From the NCBI GenBank assembly GCA_025056965.1, contig JANWVF010000132.1:1-56199 (forward strand): 56,199 nt of DNA, in the 5' to 3' direction. Source of the DNA: Thermoflexales bacterium. Its GTDB lineage: Bacteria; Chloroflexota; Anaerolineae; J036; Brachytrichaceae. The first letter of the stretch is position 1; every line of letters starts with the position of its first letter. The notes beneath the pieces are model-generated. The model saw only the letters and a list, made by a program, of their open reading frames with translations. It was not told the DNA's origin and made no database searches. A program made the position numbers and the translations under genes. Below, piece after piece: positions 25,311-35,710 of the stretch.

Positions 25311-25338
25311 TTGACAAACTCGGCTATAGTGATATAAG
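25311..25338 (+). promoter_or_regulatory. Sigma-70-type promoter for the riboswitch transcript
   Basis: TTGACA at 25311-25316 and TATAAG at 25333-25338 are spaced by 16 bases, close to the housekeeping consensus. A start site about seven bases downstream would begin the transcript exactly at the 5' edge of the yybP-ykoY aptamer, which supports both calls. Confidence 0.75.
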
Positions 25339-25343
25339 GGTAT

Positions 25344-25455
25344 CCCGGTTGGGGAGTAGCCTTCTCCAAGATGAGACCAGCCGGTCGTCAGTACGGGCCT
25401 GGCGGCCTCGGCCGGCTGTAAGCGCCATTCCATGCGCGATAGGCGAGACCACCAT
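25344..25455 (+). ncRNA. Manganese riboswitch aptamer (yybP-ykoY motif)
   Basis: The leader contains the hallmark first loop GGGGAGTAGC at 25351-25360, the second conserved loop GGTCGTCAGTACGGG at 25383-25397, and the closing GGCGAGACC at 25442-25450. These are the conserved elements of the yybP-ykoY family, which binds Mn2+ between the two loops. CGGTT just before the first loop can pair with GAGACC at the end to form P1. The same GAGACC is the left arm of the following terminator hairpin, so ligand binding should favour read-through (an ON switch). The regulated gene is a cation exchanger, consistent with manganese efflux. Confidence 0.85.
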
Positions 25456-25488
25456 GGGGTAACGAACCATGGTGGTCTCGTTATGTTT
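25444..25488 (+). terminator. Riboswitch expression-platform terminator
   Basis: CGAGACCACCATGG at 25444-25457 is the exact reverse complement of 25467-25480, with a nine-base loop, followed by the T-rich TTATGTTT. The left arm overlaps the 3' strand of aptamer helix P1, so the two structures are mutually exclusive. Confidence 0.75.
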
Positions 25489-25504
25489 AACAGGAGCGAT
25501 AAAC

Positions 25505-26608
25505 TTGAATATTCCTACGTTGATCTTGTTCATCGTTGGATTGGGGTTGTTAATCGCCGGCGCCGAGCTGCTGGTGCGCGGCGCGGCGCGATTAGCAGCC
25601 GCAGTGGGCATCTCAGCGCTGGTGATTGGCCTCACCGTTGTCGCGTTCGGCACCAGCTCACCCGAACTGGCCGTGAGCGTGCAGGCGGCGCTGGCCGGAC
25701 AAGCCGACATCGCTTTCGGCAACGTCGTCGGCAGCAACATCTTCAATATTTTGGTGATCATCGGGCTCTCGGCACTGATCACGCCGTTGATCGTAGCGCA
25801 GCAGTTGGTGCGGCTGGATGTGCCGGTCATGATCGGCGTAACGGTGCTGGCGGCCTTGTTCGCGCAGAACCTGAACATCAGCCGGCTAGAAGGGATCATC
25901 CTGTTCGCCGGGCTGGTGATCTACACGATCTTCTTGTTCGTGCAAAGCCGGCGCGAGGCCAGCGCCGTGGTGGAGCAGGAATACGCGCAAGAGTTCGGTG
26001 AGCGACCCAGAGGGCCACTCCAGGTTGCGCTCAACCTCGTCTTCGTCGTAATCGGTTTGGGGATGTTGGTGATCGGCTCGCGCTGGCTCGTGGACGGCGC
26101 TGTGGCGATCGCGCGCGTCCTAGGCGTCAGCGAGCTGGTGATCGGGCTGACGATCGTCTCGGCGGGCACATCGCTGCCGGAAGTGGCTACGTCGCTCGTC
26201 GCGGCGATCAAAGGCGAGCGCGACATCGCCGTGGGCAATGCCGTAGGAAGCAACATCTTCAACTTGTTGTCCGTGCTAGGGCTCTCCAGCATCGCCGCGC
26301 CGTCCGGCATCTCCGTCGCGCCTGCGGCGCTCAACTTCGACGTCTGGGTGATGCTGGCCGTCGCCATCGCATGTCTGCCGGTGTTCTTTACTGGCTACCG
26401 AATCTCGCGCTGGGAAGGGGCGATGTTCGTCGGCTACTACATCGCCTACGTTGCCTACTTGATCCTCGCGGCGACCCAGCACGATGCCCTGCCGGCCTTC
26501 AGCAGCGCGATGCTGCTGTTCGTCATTCCGCTTACGCTGGTTACTTTGGCCGTCACGGTCTTTCGCGAGTTCTGGCTGCGCAAGCAACAGGCGGCGACGC
26601 AAGCTTAG
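25505..26608 (+). CDS. CaCA family cation exchanger (YrbG-like), probably manganese-regulated
   Basis: A 367-aa membrane antiporter of the calcium/cation exchanger family, with about ten membrane segments in two homologous halves. The alpha-repeats are plain: GTSSPELAVS followed by GNVVGSNIFN in the first half, and GTSLPEVATS followed by GNAVGSNIFN in the second. Such proteins exchange Ca2+, or in some cases other divalent ions, for Na+ or H+. The preferred start is TTG at 25505, eight bases after an AGGAG and just beyond the riboswitch terminator. An ATG at 25469 lies inside that terminator. Control by a manganese riboswitch suggests Mn2+ export. The mrp genes follow after 41 bases without a terminator. 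Confidence 0.88.
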   Translation: MNIPTLILFIVGLGLLIAGAELLVRGAARLAAAVGISALVIGLTVVAFGTSSPELAVSVQAALAGQADIAFGNVVGSNIFNILVIIGLSALITPLIVAQQLVRLDVPVMIGVTVLAALFAQNLNISRLEGIILFAGLVIYTIFLFVQSRREASAVVEQEYAQEFGERPRGPLQVALNLVFVVIGLGMLVIGSRWLVDGAVAIARVLGVSELVIGLTIVSAGTSLPEVATSLVAAIKGERDIAVGNAVGSNIFNLLSVLGLSSIAAPSGISVAPAALNFDVWVMLAVAIACLPVFFTGYRISRWEGAMFVGYYIAYVAYLILAATQHDALPAFSSAMLLFVIPLTLVTLAVTVFREFWLRKQQAATQA

Positions 26609-26649: not shown

Positions 26650-29600
26650 ATGAATGACGCGCTCGTGATCCCGCTCCTTATCTGCGCCGTCGGCACGATG
26701 CTCGCCGGTCTGTTTGTAGCGACGGCGCTTGGGGCGCGCATCTCCACGCGCGCCATGGGCTGGTTGCTAGCCATCGTCCCCGCCATCGCGTTTGGAGCAC
26801 TGATCGCGCAATCGCCGCTCGTCCTGGCCGGCCAGACGTTGAGCTGGTCCATCGCCTGGATTCCGTCGCTGGGGCTGCGCTTCTCGCTGTGGCTGGACGG
26901 CCTCAGCCTGCTATTTGGGTTGCTGGTGTCGGGCATCGGTATGCTCGTCGTGCTGTACGCCGGCTACTATTTCGCGCCGAAACACGCAGACGACGCACAC
27001 GGGGAGGACGGGAAATCCCATCCCCCTGCCTCTCAAGACGCCGATGCGCGATTCTTCTTCTACATTCTGCTGTTCATGACTAGCATGCTGGGGTTGGTGC
27101 TGGCCGGCGACGTGATCACGCTGTTCGTGTTCTGGGAGGGCACCAGCATCACCTCTTTTTTGTTGGTGGCGTACAAGTCTAAGGATGAAGACGCGCGCCG
27201 AGGCGCCTTCCGCGCGTTGTTCATCACCGGCGGCGGTGGGGTTGCGCTGCTGGCCGGGTTGATTTTCGCGTCGTCCATCGCCGGCAGCACCAGCTTCGCC
27301 GACATCGTGCAGCAGGGCGATGTGCTGCGGGCCAGCGAGCTATACCCGGTCATGTTTGCCTTGATCGCCCTCGGTGCGCTCACTAAGAGCGCGCAAGCGC
27401 CGGCACACTTCTGGTTGCCCGGCGCCATGAGCGCGCCCGCGCCGGCGTCGGCGTATCTGCACTCGGCCACCATGGTCAAAGCCGGCGTGTATTTGCTCGC
27501 GCGGCTGCATCCCGCCATCGGCCTAACCGATCTGTGGTTCTGGACGCTGAGCCTCGTGGGCCTAGCCACGATGCTCATCGGCGCATACGTCGGCTTTAAG
27601 CAGAACGACCTGAAAGCGCTGTTGGCCTATTCCACCGTCAGCCAACTCGGCGTGTTGGTCATGCTGATCGGCCAAGACACCGAGATCGCCTTCAAAGCCC
27701 TCGTGATCAGCGTCCTGGCGCATGCGCTGTACAAGAGCGCGCTCTTCCTGGTCACCGGCATTGTGGATCACGAGAGCGGCACGCGCGACCTGCGGCAGCT
27801 AGGGGGCATTTGGCGCGCAATGCCGGCCACGTTCGGCGTAGCCTTGATCGCGGCGCTCTCCATGGCCGGCCTACCGCCGCTCTTCGGCTTCTTGGCTAAG
27901 GAGACGCTGCTCGCCACGGCAACGCACCCCAACGTGCCGCCCATCGTGGATGTGATCTTCCCGGCGGCTGCGGTTGCCGCCGGTGCGCTCATCTTGGCAC
28001 AGGCCGGCCTAATCGTGTTCGAGGCCTTCTTGGGCAAGCCCAAGGCGGAGCTGCATCCTCACGAAGCCCCGCCGCCGATGTGGATCGCGCCGGCTATCCC
28101 GGCGGTCGTCTCGCTCGCCGTCGGCCTGCTGCCCGAGCCGGAAGCACTGGCGACGCTGCTGGCGCGCGCGGCAGCAGCGAGCTATGGCGCGCCGGTGAAG
28201 GTATCGCTGGCGCTGTGGACGGGCATCAGCGTGCCGCTGGTGTTAAGTGCCGTCGCCGTCACAATCGGCGCGATCACCATTGCGCTGCGCGGACGCCTGC
28301 GCCCACTATTCACGCGCCTCAGCGGCGCGCTCAGCTTAGAACCCCTCTACACCGGCGCGCTGAAAGCGATTGACGGTTTGGCGTGGCTGGTGACGCGCGT
28401 GCAGAACGGCAAGCTGCGCCTGTACTTGGCGATCATGTTGATCAGCGGCGGGGTGATCGTGGTGACGATCGGTCGCCTGAGCGTGCCGATAGTGGCGCCG
28501 GCCGATTTTGGCATGCGCCCCGAGCTGGCGGCGCTGCGCGTGTTCCTGTTGTTAGTCGTCGGCATCGCGGCGCTGGCCAGCGTGCGGCTGCGGCGCGACC
28601 TATTCGCGATTTTGGCGCTGACCGCGTCGGGCCTGAGCATTGCGGTGTTGATGATGTTGGAGCCGGCGCCCGACATCGCCCTGGTGCAGGTAGTCGTGGA
28701 GACGCTGACGATGGTGGTACTGGTGCTGGTGCTCACGCGCGTGCCGCGCGAACAGCGGGAGCGCGCCTTTGAATTCACCTTCCGACAGACTCGCCCCGGC
28801 TTGATCCGCGACGTGTTGATCGCCCTCGGCAGCGGCGCGGTGATGTTTGCGATCGTGATGACGGCGCTGGGCACGCGCCCGCGCGAATCGCAGGTGACGC
28901 CGTACTACGAGCAGAACGCCAAGCCGCTCACCGGCGCGAACGACATCGTCGGCGCGATCGTGATTGACTTTCGCGGCTTTGATACGCTGGTGGAGATCAG
29001 CGTCTTCGCGGCGGCCGGCCTGGCAATCTACACGCTGCTGCGCTACGCCTCGCGCAAGGCCGGCGATCGCGACGACGATATACCTGTGCTCGATGAGCGC
29101 ATGCTGCCGTTCCGCGGCATCGCCGGCCCGCTCACGTCGCCCTTCGTGCAAGCGCTGGCGAGGTTGATCCTGCCGCTCACCCTTCTGCTCGCGGCTACAC
29201 ATGTCCTATACGGCCACGACCAACCCGGCGACGGCTTCACGGCAGGCGTGATCATCAGCTTGGGGCTGGCGACGTGGTACGTCGTGTTCGGCTACGCCGA
29301 GACGAAGCGCCGCTTGGCGTGGCTGCAGCCGAGCCTGTTCATCGGCGCCGGCCTGCTGTTGGCCATCGGATCGGCGGTCGCCGCCGCGATCATCGGCGGA
29401 TCCTTCTTCTCGCCGGTGGACTTCGGCAAATTGATGGGGCTCGGCTTTCTGCCGCGCGGCGTGTATTTCAGCACGGCTACGTTTTACGAGCTGGCTATTT
29501 GTCTGACCGTCACCGGCGGCGCCGTGCTGATGCTCGATACGCTTGGCCATCCGAAGGACAGCGATGCCGAGACGACGCGCCAGATGGACGAGATCGCCGC

Positions 29601-29712
29601 GTTACGACGGCGCGGCGAGGTCACACTGGGCGAAGCCCCGGCATCGGACGGTGAAGGTCAGCAGTTGCCGGCTGAAGACAAGCGCCCGGAAGTTTTAGAG
29701 CGAGAGAGCTGA
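26650..29712 (+). CDS. mrpA: Mrp antiporter subunit A with fused MrpB domain (first copy)
   Basis: A 1020-aa polytopic subunit of the multi-subunit Na+/H+ antiporter (Mrp/Mnh). Residues about 1-500 carry the NuoL-like proton channel, with FWEGTSITSFLLV near 160 and THSKAQAPAH-like KSAQAPAHFWLPGAM near 250. About 637-800 hold the MbhD/MbhE-like membrane segments (EQNAKPLTGANDIVGAIV). About 823-975 are an MnhB domain (YGHDQPGDGFTAG), so separate mrpB is not needed. The start ATG at 26650 is 41 bases after the exchanger. It heads mrpAB-C-D-F-G. The protein is clearly homologous throughout to the second copy at 32308. Confidence 0.93.
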   Translation: MNDALVIPLLICAVGTMLAGLFVATALGARISTRAMGWLLAIVPAIAFGALIAQSPLVLAGQTLSWSIAWIPSLGLRFSLWLDGLSLLFGLLVSGIGMLVVLYAGYYFAPKHADDAHGEDGKSHPPASQDADARFFFYILLFMTSMLGLVLAGDVITLFVFWEGTSITSFLLVAYKSKDEDARRGAFRALFITGGGGVALLAGLIFASSIAGSTSFADIVQQGDVLRASELYPVMFALIALGALTKSAQAPAHFWLPGAMSAPAPASAYLHSATMVKAGVYLLARLHPAIGLTDLWFWTLSLVGLATMLIGAYVGFKQNDLKALLAYSTVSQLGVLVMLIGQDTEIAFKALVISVLAHALYKSALFLVTGIVDHESGTRDLRQLGGIWRAMPATFGVALIAALSMAGLPPLFGFLAKETLLATATHPNVPPIVDVIFPAAAVAAGALILAQAGLIVFEAFLGKPKAELHPHEAPPPMWIAPAIPAVVSLAVGLLPEPEALATLLARAAAASYGAPVKVSLALWTGISVPLVLSAVAVTIGAITIALRGRLRPLFTRLSGALSLEPLYTGALKAIDGLAWLVTRVQNGKLRLYLAIMLISGGVIVVTIGRLSVPIVAPADFGMRPELAALRVFLLLVVGIAALASVRLRRDLFAILALTASGLSIAVLMMLEPAPDIALVQVVVETLTMVVLVLVLTRVPREQRERAFEFTFRQTRPGLIRDVLIALGSGAVMFAIVMTALGTRPRESQVTPYYEQNAKPLTGANDIVGAIVIDFRGFDTLVEISVFAAAGLAIYTLLRYASRKAGDRDDDIPVLDERMLPFRGIAGPLTSPFVQALARLILPLTLLLAATHVLYGHDQPGDGFTAGVIISLGLATWYVVFGYAETKRRLAWLQPSLFIGAGLLLAIGSAVAAAIIGGSFFSPVDFGKLMGLGFLPRGVYFSTATFYELAICLTVTGGAVLMLDTLGHPKDSDAETTRQMDEIAALRRRGEVTLGEAPASDGEGQQLPAEDKRPEVLERES

Positions 29713-29768
29713 CGAGTCATCCACCCATCTGCTCACCTGACGACTCGCTTGACAAGGGAGAGATGCCT

Positions 29769-30101
29769 ATGGAAGTGTTTGTTGCCTTGACGATCAGCGT
29801 ATTGTTCGCCATCGGCGTGTTCCAGCTCCTGCGCCGCAACCTGATCCGTTCAGCTATCGGCATGGCCATCGTGTCGAACGCGATCAACCTCTTTCTGCTT
29901 GCTGCCGGGGCATATCGCGGCGAAGTTGCTGCCTATGCCAATCAGGTCGGCCAGCGCAGCGACGCGCTGCCGCAGGCGCTCATCCTCACGGCCATCGTCA
30001 TCAGCATGGGCGGCTTTGCCGTCGTGCTCTCGATGTTGTATGTACTCTCGGTGCGTTACAAGACCAGCGACAGCGACGAGGTGAAGGGGCTGACGCACTG
30101 A
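29769..30101 (+). CDS. mrpC: Mrp antiporter subunit C (first copy)
   Basis: A 110-aa NuoK-like subunit with three membrane segments. Signature segments are YQLL-like FQLLRRNLIRSAIGMA near residue 18 and QALILTAIVISMGGFAV near 70, with the GDSDEVKG-like SDSDEVKGLTH tail. The ATG at 29769 is preferred over 29763: it gives a protein of the same length as the second MrpC and better spacing from the GGGAG ribosome-binding site. Confidence 0.93.
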   Translation: MEVFVALTISVLFAIGVFQLLRRNLIRSAIGMAIVSNAINLFLLAAGAYRGEVAAYANQVGQRSDALPQALILTAIVISMGGFAVVLSMLYVLSVRYKTSDSDEVKGLTH

Positions 30102-30117
30102 CGAGGCATCTTGAAGC

Positions 30118-31608
30118 ATGACGTCATCCTCGCTGGTCATTCTCCCCATCATCATCCCGCTGACCGCTGCAGCGGTGGCGGTGTTGTTGCGCAACCATCG
30201 GCGCGCGCAAGCCGCCTGGGCCTTCGGCGCCATGGTCGCGTCGTTCATATGCAGCAGTGTGCTGCTGTGGGTGGTGACATCGAGCGGTGCGCCGGTCGTC
30301 TTCCAAGTAGGCGGCTGGCCGGCGCCGGCCGGCATTTCATTGGTCGGCGACCGGCTATCGGCGCTGATGGCAGTGATGTGCCAACTCGTATTAGTCGGCG
30401 GCTTCCTATACGCGCTGGGGTGTCGCGACCAGTGCGCGCAGTACCCGGCGTTCTACCCGCTCTTTCTGATGCTGGCCGTCGGCCTGACGGGCGCAATGCT
30501 CACCGGCGACTTGTTCAACCTGTTCGTGTTCGCCGAGCTGCTGGTGTTCGCCGGTGCCGCGCTCACAGCCATGTCCGACGACAAGTTCGGCACCGAAGCC
30601 GCATACAAATACTTCTACATCAGCTTTGTGGCTTCCATCGCGCTGCTGCTGGCCAGCGGTAGCTTGTATGTGTCGTATGGCACGCTGAACATCGCCGACC
30701 TGGCCCGACGCATCGCAGCCGATCCTTCACCGCCGCTGGCGCTGCCGGCCATGGCGCTGCTGATGATTTTCTTCATGGTCAAGGGTGCAGTGATGCCCTT
30801 TCACTTTTGGCAGCCGGACTTCCATACCGCTGCGCCGACGCCGGTGCATGCGGTGCTGTCGTCAGTGGTGGTCAAGCTCGGCATCTATGGCTTTCTGCGC
30901 ATGACCACGCTGCTGTTCGTCGAGCAAGCCGAGATCATCCGCGCGGTGCTGGTCGTCGTCGGCGCCGTCGGTGTGTGGTTCGGCGGCCTGGGCGCGGTTG
31001 GCACATACGACGCCAAGCGCATGTTGGCCTACTCAACGCTCGGCCAGCTCGGGTTCATCCTGGTCGCTATCGGCTGGGGCACGCCGCTGGCGCTGGCAGC
31101 AGCGATTGTGTATGCCTTCAACCACAGCCTGCTGAAAGCAGCGATGCTGATGCTGGCCGGCAGCGTCGCCAGCCATGCGCCGGTGAAGACGGCCGCTTTT
31201 GCGGCCATCACCGGGCTGGGCAAAAAGCTGCCCTGGGCCGGCGTGCTGTTCCTGCTGGGCGGCATGGGATTGGCCGGCATCCCGCCACTCAACGGCTTTA
31301 TCGGCAAGCTCATGTTGTTCCGCAGCGGCGTCGAGGCGCAGGCGTACCTGCCGCTGGCGGCCATCGGCCTGGCGGGCATCGTCACGCTGGTATACGTCAT
31401 TCGCGCCTTCCAGCGCATCTGGTGGGCGCCCTTGCCAGAGGGTGTTAAGCCTAAACCCTACGGCGACCGGCTGATCGCGCCGGCGTTGCTGATCGCGCTG
31501 AGCTTGGGACTGGGCATTTGGGCGGAACCGCTGGTGAGCCTGGCCGAGGCGACGGTGGCGTGGATGAGCAGGCCGGAACTCTACGTGCGCGCAGTGCTCG
31601 GCGGCTAG
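30118..31608 (+). CDS. mrpD: Mrp antiporter subunit D (first copy)
   Basis: A 496-aa NuoN/NuoM-like proton-conducting subunit with about 14 membrane segments. It shows GDLFNLFVFAELL near residue 130, with the conserved Glu, KGAVMPFHFWQPDFH near 222 with a conserved Lys, and AYSTLGQLGFIL near 302. It lies 16 bases after mrpC. The gene that normally follows, mrpE, is missing: mrpF begins only 20 bases after this stop. Confidence 0.93.
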   Translation: MTSSSLVILPIIIPLTAAAVAVLLRNHRRAQAAWAFGAMVASFICSSVLLWVVTSSGAPVVFQVGGWPAPAGISLVGDRLSALMAVMCQLVLVGGFLYALGCRDQCAQYPAFYPLFLMLAVGLTGAMLTGDLFNLFVFAELLVFAGAALTAMSDDKFGTEAAYKYFYISFVASIALLLASGSLYVSYGTLNIADLARRIAADPSPPLALPAMALLMIFFMVKGAVMPFHFWQPDFHTAAPTPVHAVLSSVVVKLGIYGFLRMTTLLFVEQAEIIRAVLVVVGAVGVWFGGLGAVGTYDAKRMLAYSTLGQLGFILVAIGWGTPLALAAAIVYAFNHSLLKAAMLMLAGSVASHAPVKTAAFAAITGLGKKLPWAGVLFLLGGMGLAGIPPLNGFIGKLMLFRSGVEAQAYLPLAAIGLAGIVTLVYVIRAFQRIWWAPLPEGVKPKPYGDRLIAPALLIALSLGLGIWAEPLVSLAEATVAWMSRPELYVRAVLGG

Positions 31609-31628
31609 CCGAGAAGAGGAGAAAGCGA

Positions 31629-31904
31629 ATGGAACAAATCCTGAGCGTCACGTTCGCGCTCGCGCTGTTCGTGCATGCGGTGCTGCTGAGCGTGGCCGTG
31701 TGGCGCACGCTGCGCGGCGAAAACGCCGTAGATCGCCTGTTAAGCGTAGAGCTGTTGAGCATGTTGGCGTTGTGCATGCTGATCTTGATCACGCTCATCA
31801 CCGGCGAAAGCATCTACATGGACATTGCCCTGGCACTGGCTGCGCTCGGGTTCATCGGCACGTTGGCATTGGCCAAGTACCTGGCCGACCAGCGCATGTT
31901 CTAG
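31629..31904 (+). CDS. mrpF: Mrp antiporter subunit F (first copy)
   Basis: A 91-aa subunit with three membrane segments. The conserved central stretch NAVDRLLSVELLSMLAL includes the family Asp, and the C-terminus is LALAKYLADQRMF. It is the same length as the second MrpF at 37853. The ATG at 31629 follows an AGGAGA ribosome-binding site. A longer upstream frame overlaps mrpD and is not needed. Confidence 0.92.
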   Translation: MEQILSVTFALALFVHAVLLSVAVWRTLRGENAVDRLLSVELLSMLALCMLILITLITGESIYMDIALALAALGFIGTLALAKYLADQRMF

Positions 31905-31932
31905 GCTGCTGAGGCTTAAGCGGATTGATCTT

Positions 31933-32298
31933 ATGGAGACTGTTTGGCGCATCTTGACCTTGGCATTGGTGGTCATCGGCACGCTCTTTTCAATCGTCGG
32001 CGTGCTGGGACTGATCCGTCTGCCGGACGTTTACACGCGGCTGCACGCAGCCGGCAAAGTGGGCGTCTTCGGCGCGGCGCTCTTGGCCGCCGCGGCTGCG
32101 CTCACCGCTCCATCGGTATTGGGCAAAGCGATCATCCTGATTGCGTTGCTGGTCATCGCCGGCCCGGTGGTATCGCATGCGCTGGCGTCGGCAGCCTACC
32201 GCATGGGCATCCCACTCAAGCGCGCCGTGCGCGATGATCTAGCTGCCGAACGAGATCGGCGTGCGGCCTTGCGCGACTTTCTAGATCATTCAGTATAG
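31933..32298 (+). CDS. mrpG: Mrp antiporter subunit G (first copy)
   Basis: A 121-aa subunit with three membrane segments. The family motif GVLGLIRLPDVYTRLHAAGK is at about residues 23-42, followed by GPVVSHALASAAYRMG. The ATG at 31933 is 28 bases after mrpF. The second mrpAB gene begins nine bases after its stop, so both gene sets are probably on one transcript. Confidence 0.92.
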   Translation: METVWRILTLALVVIGTLFSIVGVLGLIRLPDVYTRLHAAGKVGVFGAALLAAAAALTAPSVLGKAIILIALLVIAGPVVSHALASAAYRMGIPLKRAVRDDLAAERDRRAALRDFLDHSV

Positions 32299-32307
32299 TT
32301 TTAGGCG

Positions 32308-35300
32308 ATGCTCGCCCTCCCCATCATCGCGTGCCTGATCGGCGCATCTGCCGGGGCAGCGTTCACGTTCATCCCACGCGTCAGATCTATCCCCTCACAC
32401 GCGCTTGGGTGGCTGTTGGCCGTCGCACCGGCGAGCGCTTTTACCGCTATCGTGTTGCACGTGCCGCAGATCACAGCCGGTGATGCGTTGACCTGGCGCA
32501 TCCCCTGGCTGCCGGCACTTGGCGTCGAGTTTGCCTTCTACCTGGACGGCCTAAGCGCATTGTTCGGGCTGATCATCACAGGCATCGGGGCACTGGTGCT
32601 GATCTATGCCGGTTACTACTTTGCGCCTAAGCATGCCGACAAGCGGGCGACAGGCGGAAGCCACGCAGCGGCGCTGCACGGCAAACCGTCCCTTCACACT
32701 ACGGCTCATCAAACCAACGCCCACTTCTTCCTCTACGTCCTGCTCTTCATGACCAGCATGCTGGGGCTGGTGCTGGCCGGTGACGTGATCACGCTCTTCC
32801 TGTTTTGGGAAGGCACCAGCATCACGTCGTTCCTGCTGATCGCCTACAAGACTAAGGACGAAGAAGCCCGCAGCGGCGCGTTCAAGGCGCTTTTCGTCAC
32901 CGGCGGCGGGGGCATCGCGCTGCTGGCCGGGCTGCTGTTTGCTGCGGCCATCAGCGGCAGCACCGACCTGATGACCATCCTGAGCAACGGCGACGCGCTG
33001 CGCAGCAGCCCATGGTATCCGGTCATGTTGGGATTGATCGCTTTCGGCGCGTTCACCAAGAGCGCGCAAGCGCCCTTCCATTTCTGGCTGCCGAAGGCCA
33101 TGGCGGCGCCTACGCCGGCCAGCGCCTACCTTCACTCGGCGACGATGGTCAAGGCCGGCGTCTATTTATTGGCGCGCTTGCACCCCACGCTCGGGAACAC
33201 GCCATTATGGTTTTGGCTGCTGATTGTGACCGGCGGGACGACCATGTTGCTCGGGGCGATCATCGGCCTGCGCCAGAGTGACCTCAAGGGCATGCTTGCC
33301 TACTCGACCGTCAGTCAGCTCGGCGCATTGACGATGCTGATCGGCGAGGAAGCGCCGACGGCTTTCAAGGCGCTGGCGATCGGCATCTTGGCGCATGCGC
33401 TCTACAAGGGAGCGCTGTTCATGGTTGCCGGCATCGTGGATCACGAGACCGGCACGCGCGACCTGCGACGGTTGGGCAACTTGTGGCGCGTCATGCCGTG
33501 GACGTTCCTCATCTGCGGCATCGCGGCGCTCTCCATGGCCGGTCTGCCACCGCTGTTCGGCTTCCTGGCCAAGGAGACGCTGCTGGCCGCGGAGTTAGAG
33601 GAGGTGCTGCCGCGCCTGACGCGCATTGTGCTGCCTGCCGTCACTGTGCTCACCGGCGCGCTGATGCTGGCCCAAGCGGCCAGCTTGGCACTGGATACGT
33701 TCGTGACCAGGCCGGGAGTGGGCTGGCCAGCGGCGCGGCATGACTCGGAGGACGGACGGGCTCACTACGCCCTGCACGCGCACGAGCCACCGGCGGGTAT
33801 GCTGCTCGGCCCGGCCGCTTTGGCAGCGCTTTCGTTGATCATCACTGCGTTTCGGCCGGAGATTGTCGTCGGCCTGCTAGCCAGCGCGGCTACAGCCGCA
33901 TATGGCGCGCCGGTCAAGGTGGCGCTGGACCTGTTCCACGGCATCAACTTGCCCCTGATCCTAAGCAGCACTGCGATCGCGCTGGGTATTGTGCTGTTCA
34001 CGCTGCGCAGCCCAATTCGCAGCATCCCGAACGCGCGGGCGCTGAACATGAACCTTATTTACGACGGCGTGCTTCGCGTCCTGGATCGCGCTGCCGACAT
34101 CGCTACGCGCACACAAGCCGGTCGCATCCGCATTTACCTCGCGGTGATCCTCACGGCGTTCTTTGCGCTGGTGATCGCCTTTGGCGGGCTGTGGCGCGTT
34201 TTCGACGGCGCAGCGTTGGCCAACCTGAGTCGGCGCTTGTTCGACGAGCCGTTTAGCACGCAGACTGCGCTGCGCGCCTTCGGTTTGATCCTGGCCGTCG
34301 CGGCGTCGTTCGTGTCGGTCATCATCCGGCGCGACTTGCTGGCTATCATCGCGCTCGGCTCATCCGGATTGGCCATTGCTGTGGTCATCGCCCTCGAACC
34401 GTCGCCGGATGTGGCGCTAGTGCAAGCCGTGGTAGACACGCTGACGCTGGTGGTGTTGGTGTTGGCGCTCTCTCGGCTGCCCCACGCGCAGCGTCGGCGC
34501 GCCGAAGAGCTGAACGACTCCGGAATCCAGAAGTGGAACGCGCTGCTTGCCGTGGCCGGCGGCGCGTTAGTGACGGCGCTCTGTCTGTATGCCTTCGGCT
34601 CGCGCCCGCGCACATCGCTGGTCACGCCTTACTACGAGCAAAATGCCAAGCCGCTCACCGGGGCAGCAGACATCGTCGGCGCAATCGTGGTGGATTTTCG
34701 CGGCTTCGACACGATGATCGAGATCACCGTATTCAGCGTGGCCGGAATTGGCGTCTTTTCGCTGCTGCGCTACGCCATGAAGAAGCGCGAAACTGCGGGC
34801 TTGCCGGCCGAGGGTGAGATTGAGTCGAACCTGGCTGCGTCGTCGCAGCGGCCGCTGCCGCCCACGATCAGCGGAATTGACGGTGGACGCACGTCGCCGT
34901 TCATCCGCGCCCTCGGTTACGTGGCGCTGCTGTTGGCGTTCATCTTAGCCGTCGTGCAGATGGTCTACGGCCACGACCAGCCCGGCGACGGCTTCACCGC
35001 CGGTGTCACGCTTAGCCTGGGGATAGGGTTTTGGTACGTGGTCTTTGGTTACGATGAGGCTAAGCAGCGCTTGCGCTTCCTGCGACCTGGGCTGCTGATC
35101 GGCGCGGGAATCCTGACGGTCATGGCCGGTTCGACCGCACCGACGTTCCTCGGCGGTGGATTCTTCTCGCCGTTTGACTTCGGTGCGGCGCTGGGGTTGC
35201 CTTTGCCAGAGGGCTTCTACATCAGCACGTCGTTTTTGTTCGAGCTGGCCATCTGTCTAGCCGTCCTCGGCGCTGCTACCCTCATCATTGACACGCTCGG

Positions 35301-35325
35301 TCACCCGGAGCGAGATTTGGAATGA
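32308..35325 (+). CDS. mrpA: Mrp antiporter subunit A with fused MrpB domain (second copy)
   Basis: A 1005-aa paralogue of the first MrpAB protein with the same order of parts. The NuoL-like channel occupies about 1-500 (FWEGTSITSFLLI, KSAQAPFHFWLPKAM), the MbhD/MbhE-like region follows with EQNAKPLTGAADIVGAIV near 780, and an MnhB domain lies at about 860-997 (YGHDQPGDGFTAG). The channel Lys is in KSAQAPFHFW here and KSAQAPAHFW in the first copy. The two copies differ most in linkers and loops, indicating an old duplication, not a recent one. The ribosome-binding site is weak, so translation may be coupled to mrpG. Confidence 0.93.
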   Translation: MLALPIIACLIGASAGAAFTFIPRVRSIPSHALGWLLAVAPASAFTAIVLHVPQITAGDALTWRIPWLPALGVEFAFYLDGLSALFGLIITGIGALVLIYAGYYFAPKHADKRATGGSHAAALHGKPSLHTTAHQTNAHFFLYVLLFMTSMLGLVLAGDVITLFLFWEGTSITSFLLIAYKTKDEEARSGAFKALFVTGGGGIALLAGLLFAAAISGSTDLMTILSNGDALRSSPWYPVMLGLIAFGAFTKSAQAPFHFWLPKAMAAPTPASAYLHSATMVKAGVYLLARLHPTLGNTPLWFWLLIVTGGTTMLLGAIIGLRQSDLKGMLAYSTVSQLGALTMLIGEEAPTAFKALAIGILAHALYKGALFMVAGIVDHETGTRDLRRLGNLWRVMPWTFLICGIAALSMAGLPPLFGFLAKETLLAAELEEVLPRLTRIVLPAVTVLTGALMLAQAASLALDTFVTRPGVGWPAARHDSEDGRAHYALHAHEPPAGMLLGPAALAALSLIITAFRPEIVVGLLASAATAAYGAPVKVALDLFHGINLPLILSSTAIALGIVLFTLRSPIRSIPNARALNMNLIYDGVLRVLDRAADIATRTQAGRIRIYLAVILTAFFALVIAFGGLWRVFDGAALANLSRRLFDEPFSTQTALRAFGLILAVAASFVSVIIRRDLLAIIALGSSGLAIAVVIALEPSPDVALVQAVVDTLTLVVLVLALSRLPHAQRRRAEELNDSGIQKWNALLAVAGGALVTALCLYAFGSRPRTSLVTPYYEQNAKPLTGAADIVGAIVVDFRGFDTMIEITVFSVAGIGVFSLLRYAMKKRETAGLPAEGEIESNLAASSQRPLPPTISGIDGGRTSPFIRALGYVALLLAFILAVVQMVYGHDQPGDGFTAGVTLSLGIGFWYVVFGYDEAKQRLRFLRPGLLIGAGILTVMAGSTAPTFLGGGFFSPFDFGAALGLPLPEGFYISTSFLFELAICLAVLGAATLIIDTLGHPERDLE

Positions 35326-35377
35326 GGCGTCGGCGCGCTCGGCAGTGGAGCGCGTTCGCGCACTGGGAGGATAGAGC

Positions 35378-35710
35378 ATGGAAATCATCAAGGCCATTTC
35401 GATCGGTGCACTGTTCGGCATCGGGCTGTACCAACTCCTGCGTCGCAACGTCATCCGCTCGGCCATCGGCCTAAGCATCATCTCGAACGCGATCAACCTT
35501 TACTTGCTGTCCGTCGGCGCGTACGACGGCGTGGTCGAGGCATATGCGAAGGCCGTCGGCCAGCGCAGCGACGCACTGCCTCAGGCGCTCATCCTGACGG
35601 CGATCGTCATCAGCCTGGGCGGCTTCGCTTTCGTGCTGGCGCTGCTCTACGTCATCGCCGCACGTTACCGCACCGGCGACAGTGATGAGGTGAAGGGGTT
35701 GAGCCACTAA
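35378..35710 (+). CDS. mrpC: Mrp antiporter subunit C (second copy)
   Basis: A 110-aa NuoK-like subunit with LYQLLRRNVIRSAIGLS and QALILTAIVISLGGFAF. It is very similar to the first MrpC, including the SDEVKGLSH tail. A GGGAGG ribosome-binding site stands seven bases before the ATG. Confidence 0.93.
   Translation: MEIIKAISIGALFGIGLYQLLRRNVIRSAIGLSIISNAINLYLLSVGAYDGVVEAYAKAVGQRSDALPQALILTAIVISLGGFAFVLALLYVIAARYRTGDSDEVKGLSH

Follow-up and report, generated by a model that had tools for sequence, protein, structure and literature searches.

A Mn2+ riboswitch of the yybP-ykoY class, missed by Rfam at its cut-off, precedes a CaCA exchanger and Mrp operon in an Anaerolineae bacterium

Introduction

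For the Mn2+ riboswitch of L. lactis, a strand swap between aptamer helix P1.1 and a terminator has been proven (PMC11087558). The loop L3 adenosine that contacts Mn2+ is A41 in L. lactis and A48 in X. oryzae (PMC6754395). In B. pertussis, the CaCA-superfamily protein BP3410 is a Mn exporter under a yybP-ykoY element; it is induced by Mn and lowers cell Mn (PMC8546581). A Mrp antiporter, that of Thermomicrobium roseum, has in turn been described as a Ca2+/H+ antiporter (cited in PMC5703873).

Here we analyze a leader from a Thermoflexales bacterium with a 3.1-Mb, 99%-complete genome, whose named relatives are Candidatus Roseilinea and further Anaerolineae (Chloroflexota). Coordinates refer to the window, the whole 56,199-nt stretch of DNA that was analyzed, unless a locus is given. 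A sequence-only reading of this DNA had proposed a Mn riboswitch controlling a CaCA exchanger. We find that the leader carries a known kind of switch, which is real though missed by Rfam.

Results

The leader spans ~200 nt between a minus-strand amidohydrolase gene and the plus-strand exchanger gene. At its upstream end, a promoter can be read from the sequence (25311-25338, +), with a -35 element TTGACA (25311-25316), a 16-nt spacer and a -10 element TATAAG (25333-25338). Our promoter scanner missed it because the scanner demands a T at the sixth -10 position, where this box ends in G. TTGACA with a TATA-like box also precedes the aptamers of relatives L002-L012. At the other end, a Shine-Dalgarno sequence AGGAG (25492-25496, +) lies outside the terminator stem and 8 nt ahead of a TTG at 25505-25507. 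Assignment of this TTG as the exchanger start is supported by relatives L009, L013 and L014, which have ATG at the homologous position. The near-consensus promoter and TTG-started exchanger of the sequence-only reading thus both hold. An ATG at 25469 was rejected as a start because it falls within the terminator and has no good Shine-Dalgarno sequence.

Between promoter and start codon lies the Mn2+ (yybP-ykoY) aptamer (25347-25453, +), delimited by covariation and by our own covariance model, R1; the Rfam model RF00080 scores it below cut-off. The RNA folds as a four-way junction of P1.1 (25347-48 and 25350-52 with 25449-53), P1.2 (25359-61/25442-44), P2 (25363-66/25373-76), P3.1 (25378-84/25412-18), P3.2 (25395-99/25404-08) and P4 (25422-25/25434-37), all on the plus strand. 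The outer P1 is short, with 5 pairs and one bulged U. All of the conserved loops claimed for the class are found. The L1 strand TGGGGAGTAGCC (25350-25361, +) is unchanged among 11 relatives, and its G-rich loop GGGGAGUAGC is accompanied by the 3′ partner (G/A)AGACC; GG[AG][AG]GTAG of L1 occurs in 94/94 distinct Anaerolineae aptamers. Loop L3, recognized by sequence and alignment, reads TCGTCAGTACG (25385-25395, +), and A25390 within it aligns with the invariant Mn2+-contacting adenosine, A41 in L. lactis and A48 in X. oryzae. The 3′ core GGCGAGACC (25442-25450, +) is evident from sequence reading. The full leader has a folding z of -4.94.

We examined covariation in 11 leaders of close relatives from the same bacterial family (genera g1, g3 and g8), on which the known P1-P4 layout was imposed. 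The stems of these leaders vary, whereas L1, L3 and the 3′ core are preserved: 95.8% of cells are paired, 9 pairs show two-sided change, and covariation is 0.360 (0.163 when shuffled). In 94 distinct Anaerolineae sequences, 96.5% of cells are paired, 25/27 pairs show two-sided change, and covariation reaches 0.679 (0.205 shuffled), with pairing falling to 30-39% in slid controls. Because this larger alignment was fitted to the model, the unfitted test on 11 relatives is the fairer one.

The leader is poorly served by Rfam. RF00080 gives 17.6 bits in the window (E 0.0053), short of the gathering cut-off of 45 that defines membership by the Rfam threshold, and Rfam at gathering score finds no match in the window or in 20 loci. 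Across the window's own genome, RF00080 has no match at E 0.001. Minor cmscan matches to GlsR4 and CRISPR-DR22 were rejected as chance. We built R1 from 11 related Chloroflexota exchanger leaders; it scores the window at 121.9 bits (E 1.5e-32, 25341-25459), with the window leader itself among the training sequences. R1 also recovers 30/30 tested Burkholderiaceae aptamers that lie above the Rfam cut-off (E <= 0.007), most of them ahead of GDT1 genes, one ahead of MntP and one ahead of a CaCA gene. By this sequence comparison, the aptamer shares common descent with recognized Mn aptamers.

R1 detects aptamers in 80/396 Anaerolineae genomes, whereas RF00080 places 0/298 above cut-off and 13 at E 0.001. 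This disparity reflects a failure of model coverage, not of structure, and Mn switches in Anaerolineae are systematically overlooked by Rfam at its cut-off. The search with Rfam's yybP-ykoY model that the sequence-only reading had called for came back empty at threshold, which that reading had named as a refuting outcome; the empty result reflects a public model blind to the class, and R1 supplies the match. The lack of a match at gathering score might favor a chance resemblance with no riboswitch, but covariation rules this out. The cross-class matches of R1 and the genes behind related aptamers also speak against it, as does the motif pair GGGGAGTAGC-N60..90-GAGACC, which occurs a single time in the window and in 0/100 shuffles. 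We consider the chance of such a coincidence negligible.

We next considered the ligand through the first genes behind 97 Anaerolineae aptamers. These encode P-type ATPases (40), TerC (21), CaCA proteins (12, all in family f1), M50 proteins (7), Zn_peptidase_2 (5), DedA/VTT proteins (4), GDT1 (3), MntP (1) and M48 (1); representatives were confirmed, and 3/97 first genes were unplaced or apparently mis-called. The known Mn genes are among them, in the form of P-type ATPases, TerC, GDT1 and MntP. Some belong to recognized Mn-export families (named in PMC13274385), which fits Mn2+ as the ligand. Three lines of evidence thus strongly uphold the identity as a Mn riboswitch proposed earlier: covariation, the known Mn aptamers that R1 recovers, and the genes of Mn homeostasis that lie behind related aptamers. 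A yybP-class variant answering another divalent ion, such as Ca2+, would suit a target gene of the Ca/Na-exchanger type; ligand variants of the class have been suspected (PMC7266159), and one streptococcal member is described in a review as having the higher affinity for Ca2+ (PMC9495176). Against such a variant, L1 and the L3 adenosine match validated Mn aptamers, and related aptamers precede GDT1, MntP and TerC genes. We therefore judge a change of ligand to be quite improbable.

The same census shows membrane zinc metalloproteases behind Anaerolineae Mn aptamers, of the M50 site-2 (7), Zn_peptidase_2/YugP (5) and M48/HtpX (1) types (loci L145, L146, L163, L178, L189, L190, L196, L198, L199, L202, L112, L017 and L018). 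Through such arrangements, an excess of Mn could be tied to mis-metallation or to the quality control of membrane proteins. The four aptamers ahead of DedA/VTT-domain membrane proteins are at L175, L180, L184 and L186. In the library searched, no paper was on point for Mn riboswitches in connection with Mrp, with Chloroflexota or with site-2 proteases.

Downstream of the junction, and overlapping it, is an intrinsic terminator (25444-25488, +), with a stem of 14 perfect pairs (25444-25457/25467-25480), a 9-nt loop (25458-25466) and a T-rich tail (25481-25488), at -27.1 kcal/mol. A terminator scanner missed this hairpin because its loop exceeds 8 nt. Its 5′ arm takes in the final base of P1.2, the strand that partners L1, and P1.1, as the earlier claim of an arm shared with P1 would have it. 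Because the 3′ strand is shared, aptamer and terminator pairing are mutually exclusive. This overlap is general: of the 53 related leaders that we folded, nearly all have a downstream hairpin that starts in the aptamer 3′ strand. The OFF state (-55.6 kcal/mol) is lower in energy than the ON state (-36.3 kcal/mol), as expected if ON requires ligand.

Together, these features make it very likely that the leader acts as a Mn2+-class riboswitch that turns transcription ON. Transcription would start just ahead of P1. At high Mn2+, the ion would bridge L1 to L3 in the nascent transcript, stabilizing the P1 switch helix and holding strand 25442-25453 in the aptamer; the terminator would then be blocked, and polymerase would read into the exchanger gene and probably on into the Mrp operon. 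At low Mn2+, the same strand is predicted to pair with 25467-25480, forming the terminator and ending transcription. Once made, the exchanger would lower cytoplasmic Mn2+, most likely by antiport.

One point against this scheme is the tail, TTATGTTT, which is imperfect (6 T of 8). In the window's genus, g1, the U-tract is broken though T-rich (TTATGTTT, TTGCATTTT), as might be expected if the hairpin acted on translation or on Rho-dependent termination in place of intrinsic termination. The Shine-Dalgarno sequence and start codon lie outside the stem, however, tails of T7-T8 occur in the sister genus g8, and a T-rich tail immediately follows the hairpin in 41/53 related leaders. We give these other modes little weight, and intrinsic termination is most likely the mode of control.

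The controlled gene encodes a 367-aa CaCA exchanger (25505-26608, +) with two alpha-repeats. It matches Na_Ca_ex (PF01699, E 5.3e-69) and TIGR00367 (292 bits, cut-off 180), and is a homolog of NCX_Mj (E 4.3e-35). Directly downstream, after a 41-nt gap, is a Mrp cation/proton antiporter operon (26650-32298, +) consisting of an A/B fusion (26650-29712), C (29763-30101), D (30118-31608), F (31620-31904) and G (31930-32298), all on the plus strand. The exchanger is probably co-transcribed with these genes. A second Mrp gene set begins at 32308, the two sets running head to tail across 26650-35710. In relatives, the exchanger is often a tandem pair.

At every aptamer-bearing exchanger locus, mrpA follows on the same strand. 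Adjacency of exchanger and mrpA without an aptamer is widespread in Chloroflexota and found in some Burkholderiales, so that the operon is probably the older element and the switch a later recruit. In two species of the window's genus (G002 and G008), the exchanger-mrp operon is intact and the aptamer is only a relic (L007:180-366, +; L004:2620-2815, -). What is left comprises the promoter, the right arm of the terminator, P4 and pieces of L3, whereas the L1 core and P2 are gone. Mn control is thus dispensable in these species. The sequence-only reading was right about the exchanger gene and missed both the Mrp operon directly behind it and this loss.

Neither R1 nor Rfam finds an aptamer at the genome's second exchanger (contig C142; 63% identical), and among the close homologs scanned (55-64% identical) from Proteobacteria, Verrucomicrobia, cyanobacteria and Planctomycetes there is no convincing aptamer. 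The leader of the second exchanger (L216:1550-2050, -; G000:C142) has short repeats that occur around 'cacgaatgg', and a GC hairpin in it precedes TTTTACTT.

Whether the exchanger itself moves Mn2+ is a separate question from what the switch senses. Judged by precedent, the Mn2+ export predicted in the sequence-only reading is plausible, and we lean towards Mn2+ as the physiological substrate. Mn aptamers elsewhere lie mainly ahead of Mn exporters, and the Bordetella CaCA protein under such an aptamer lowers cell Mn (PMC8546581). A further PF01699 gene behind an Rfam-recognized aptamer (L242) points the same way. In a search confined to TerC, MntP and GDT1, the 99%-complete genome gave no match. 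Alternatively, the switch may sense Mn2+ while the exchanger, together with Mrp, serves mainly to swap Ca2+ for Na+ or H+, leaving Mn2+ as a regulatory signal or side substrate. The many aptamer-free exchanger-mrpA pairs and the decay of the aptamer in two genus members that retain the operon are both consistent with this arrangement. So are the unchanged Ca/Na-exchanger signature residues of the window protein and the Ca2+/H+ activity of the T. roseum Mrp (PMC5703873). Comparing aptamer-linked with other exchangers, we found no residues in the alpha-repeat motifs that mark Mn-specific proteins. With no distinguishing metal-site residue, and with aptamer-free operons common, the sequence of the protein does not in itself imply that it transports Mn2+. 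We regard a mainly Ca2+-handling exchanger as a less probable but serious alternative to Mn2+ export.

CaCA proteins may have come under Mn control more than once. A Burkholderiaceae PF01699 gene (L242) lies behind an Rfam-recognized Mn aptamer, and its product is no more than a distant relative of the exchanger in the window (22-32% identity over patches), so recruitment of CaCA proteins to the switch looks independent in the two lineages. This comparison suggests at least two recruitments.

Discussion

Mn riboswitches are among the commonest in bacteria, yet the current public model, applied at its cut-off, fails to detect those sampled in Anaerolineae; R1 provides a model that recovers them. 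With the genes found behind these switches, the reach of Mn control grows to include a CaCA-Mrp operon as well as membrane metalloproteases. The abundant pairing of exchanger and Mrp genes also becomes one whose substrate can be tested. If Mn2+ is indeed exported, the locus might form a sodium-cycle module run by a Mn2+ riboswitch, in which a Na+-driven CaCA protein expels Mn2+ and Mrp restores the Na+ gradient, the switch having been recruited to an older operon independently of Bordetella. Taken as a whole, this scenario is tentative and somewhat doubtful.

The locus resembles described systems in different parts. As in T. roseum, also a member of Chloroflexota, a Mrp system is linked to a divalent cation; in contrast to the window, no riboswitch is reported there. 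The exchanger shares the alpha-repeats GTS.PE and GN..GSN with NCX_Mj (MJ0091) and with the E. coli YrbG-type antiporters of TIGR00367. It differs from NCX_Mj in having Asn at the aligned position of D240 (NCX_Mj numbering), in the mrp genes that follow and in the Mn switch ahead. With B. pertussis BP3410 it has in common a CaCA-type protein behind a Mn riboswitch; Mn induction and export are experimental findings in BP3410 only, and the relation between the two proteins was gauged through L242 as a stand-in for the BP3410 sequence.

The riboswitch itself departs from RF00080 and the L. lactis example (PMC11087558) in its Rfam score (17.6 against a cut-off of 45), its P1.2 of GCC/GGC, its short and bulged outer P1 and its place ahead of a CaCA-Mrp operon. 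It agrees with them in L1 (GGGGAGTAGC), in the Mn-contacting adenosine of L3 and in the P1-P4 layout. As in L. lactis, the 3′ strand of P1.1 is common to aptamer and terminator, in an arrangement consistent with an ON switch.
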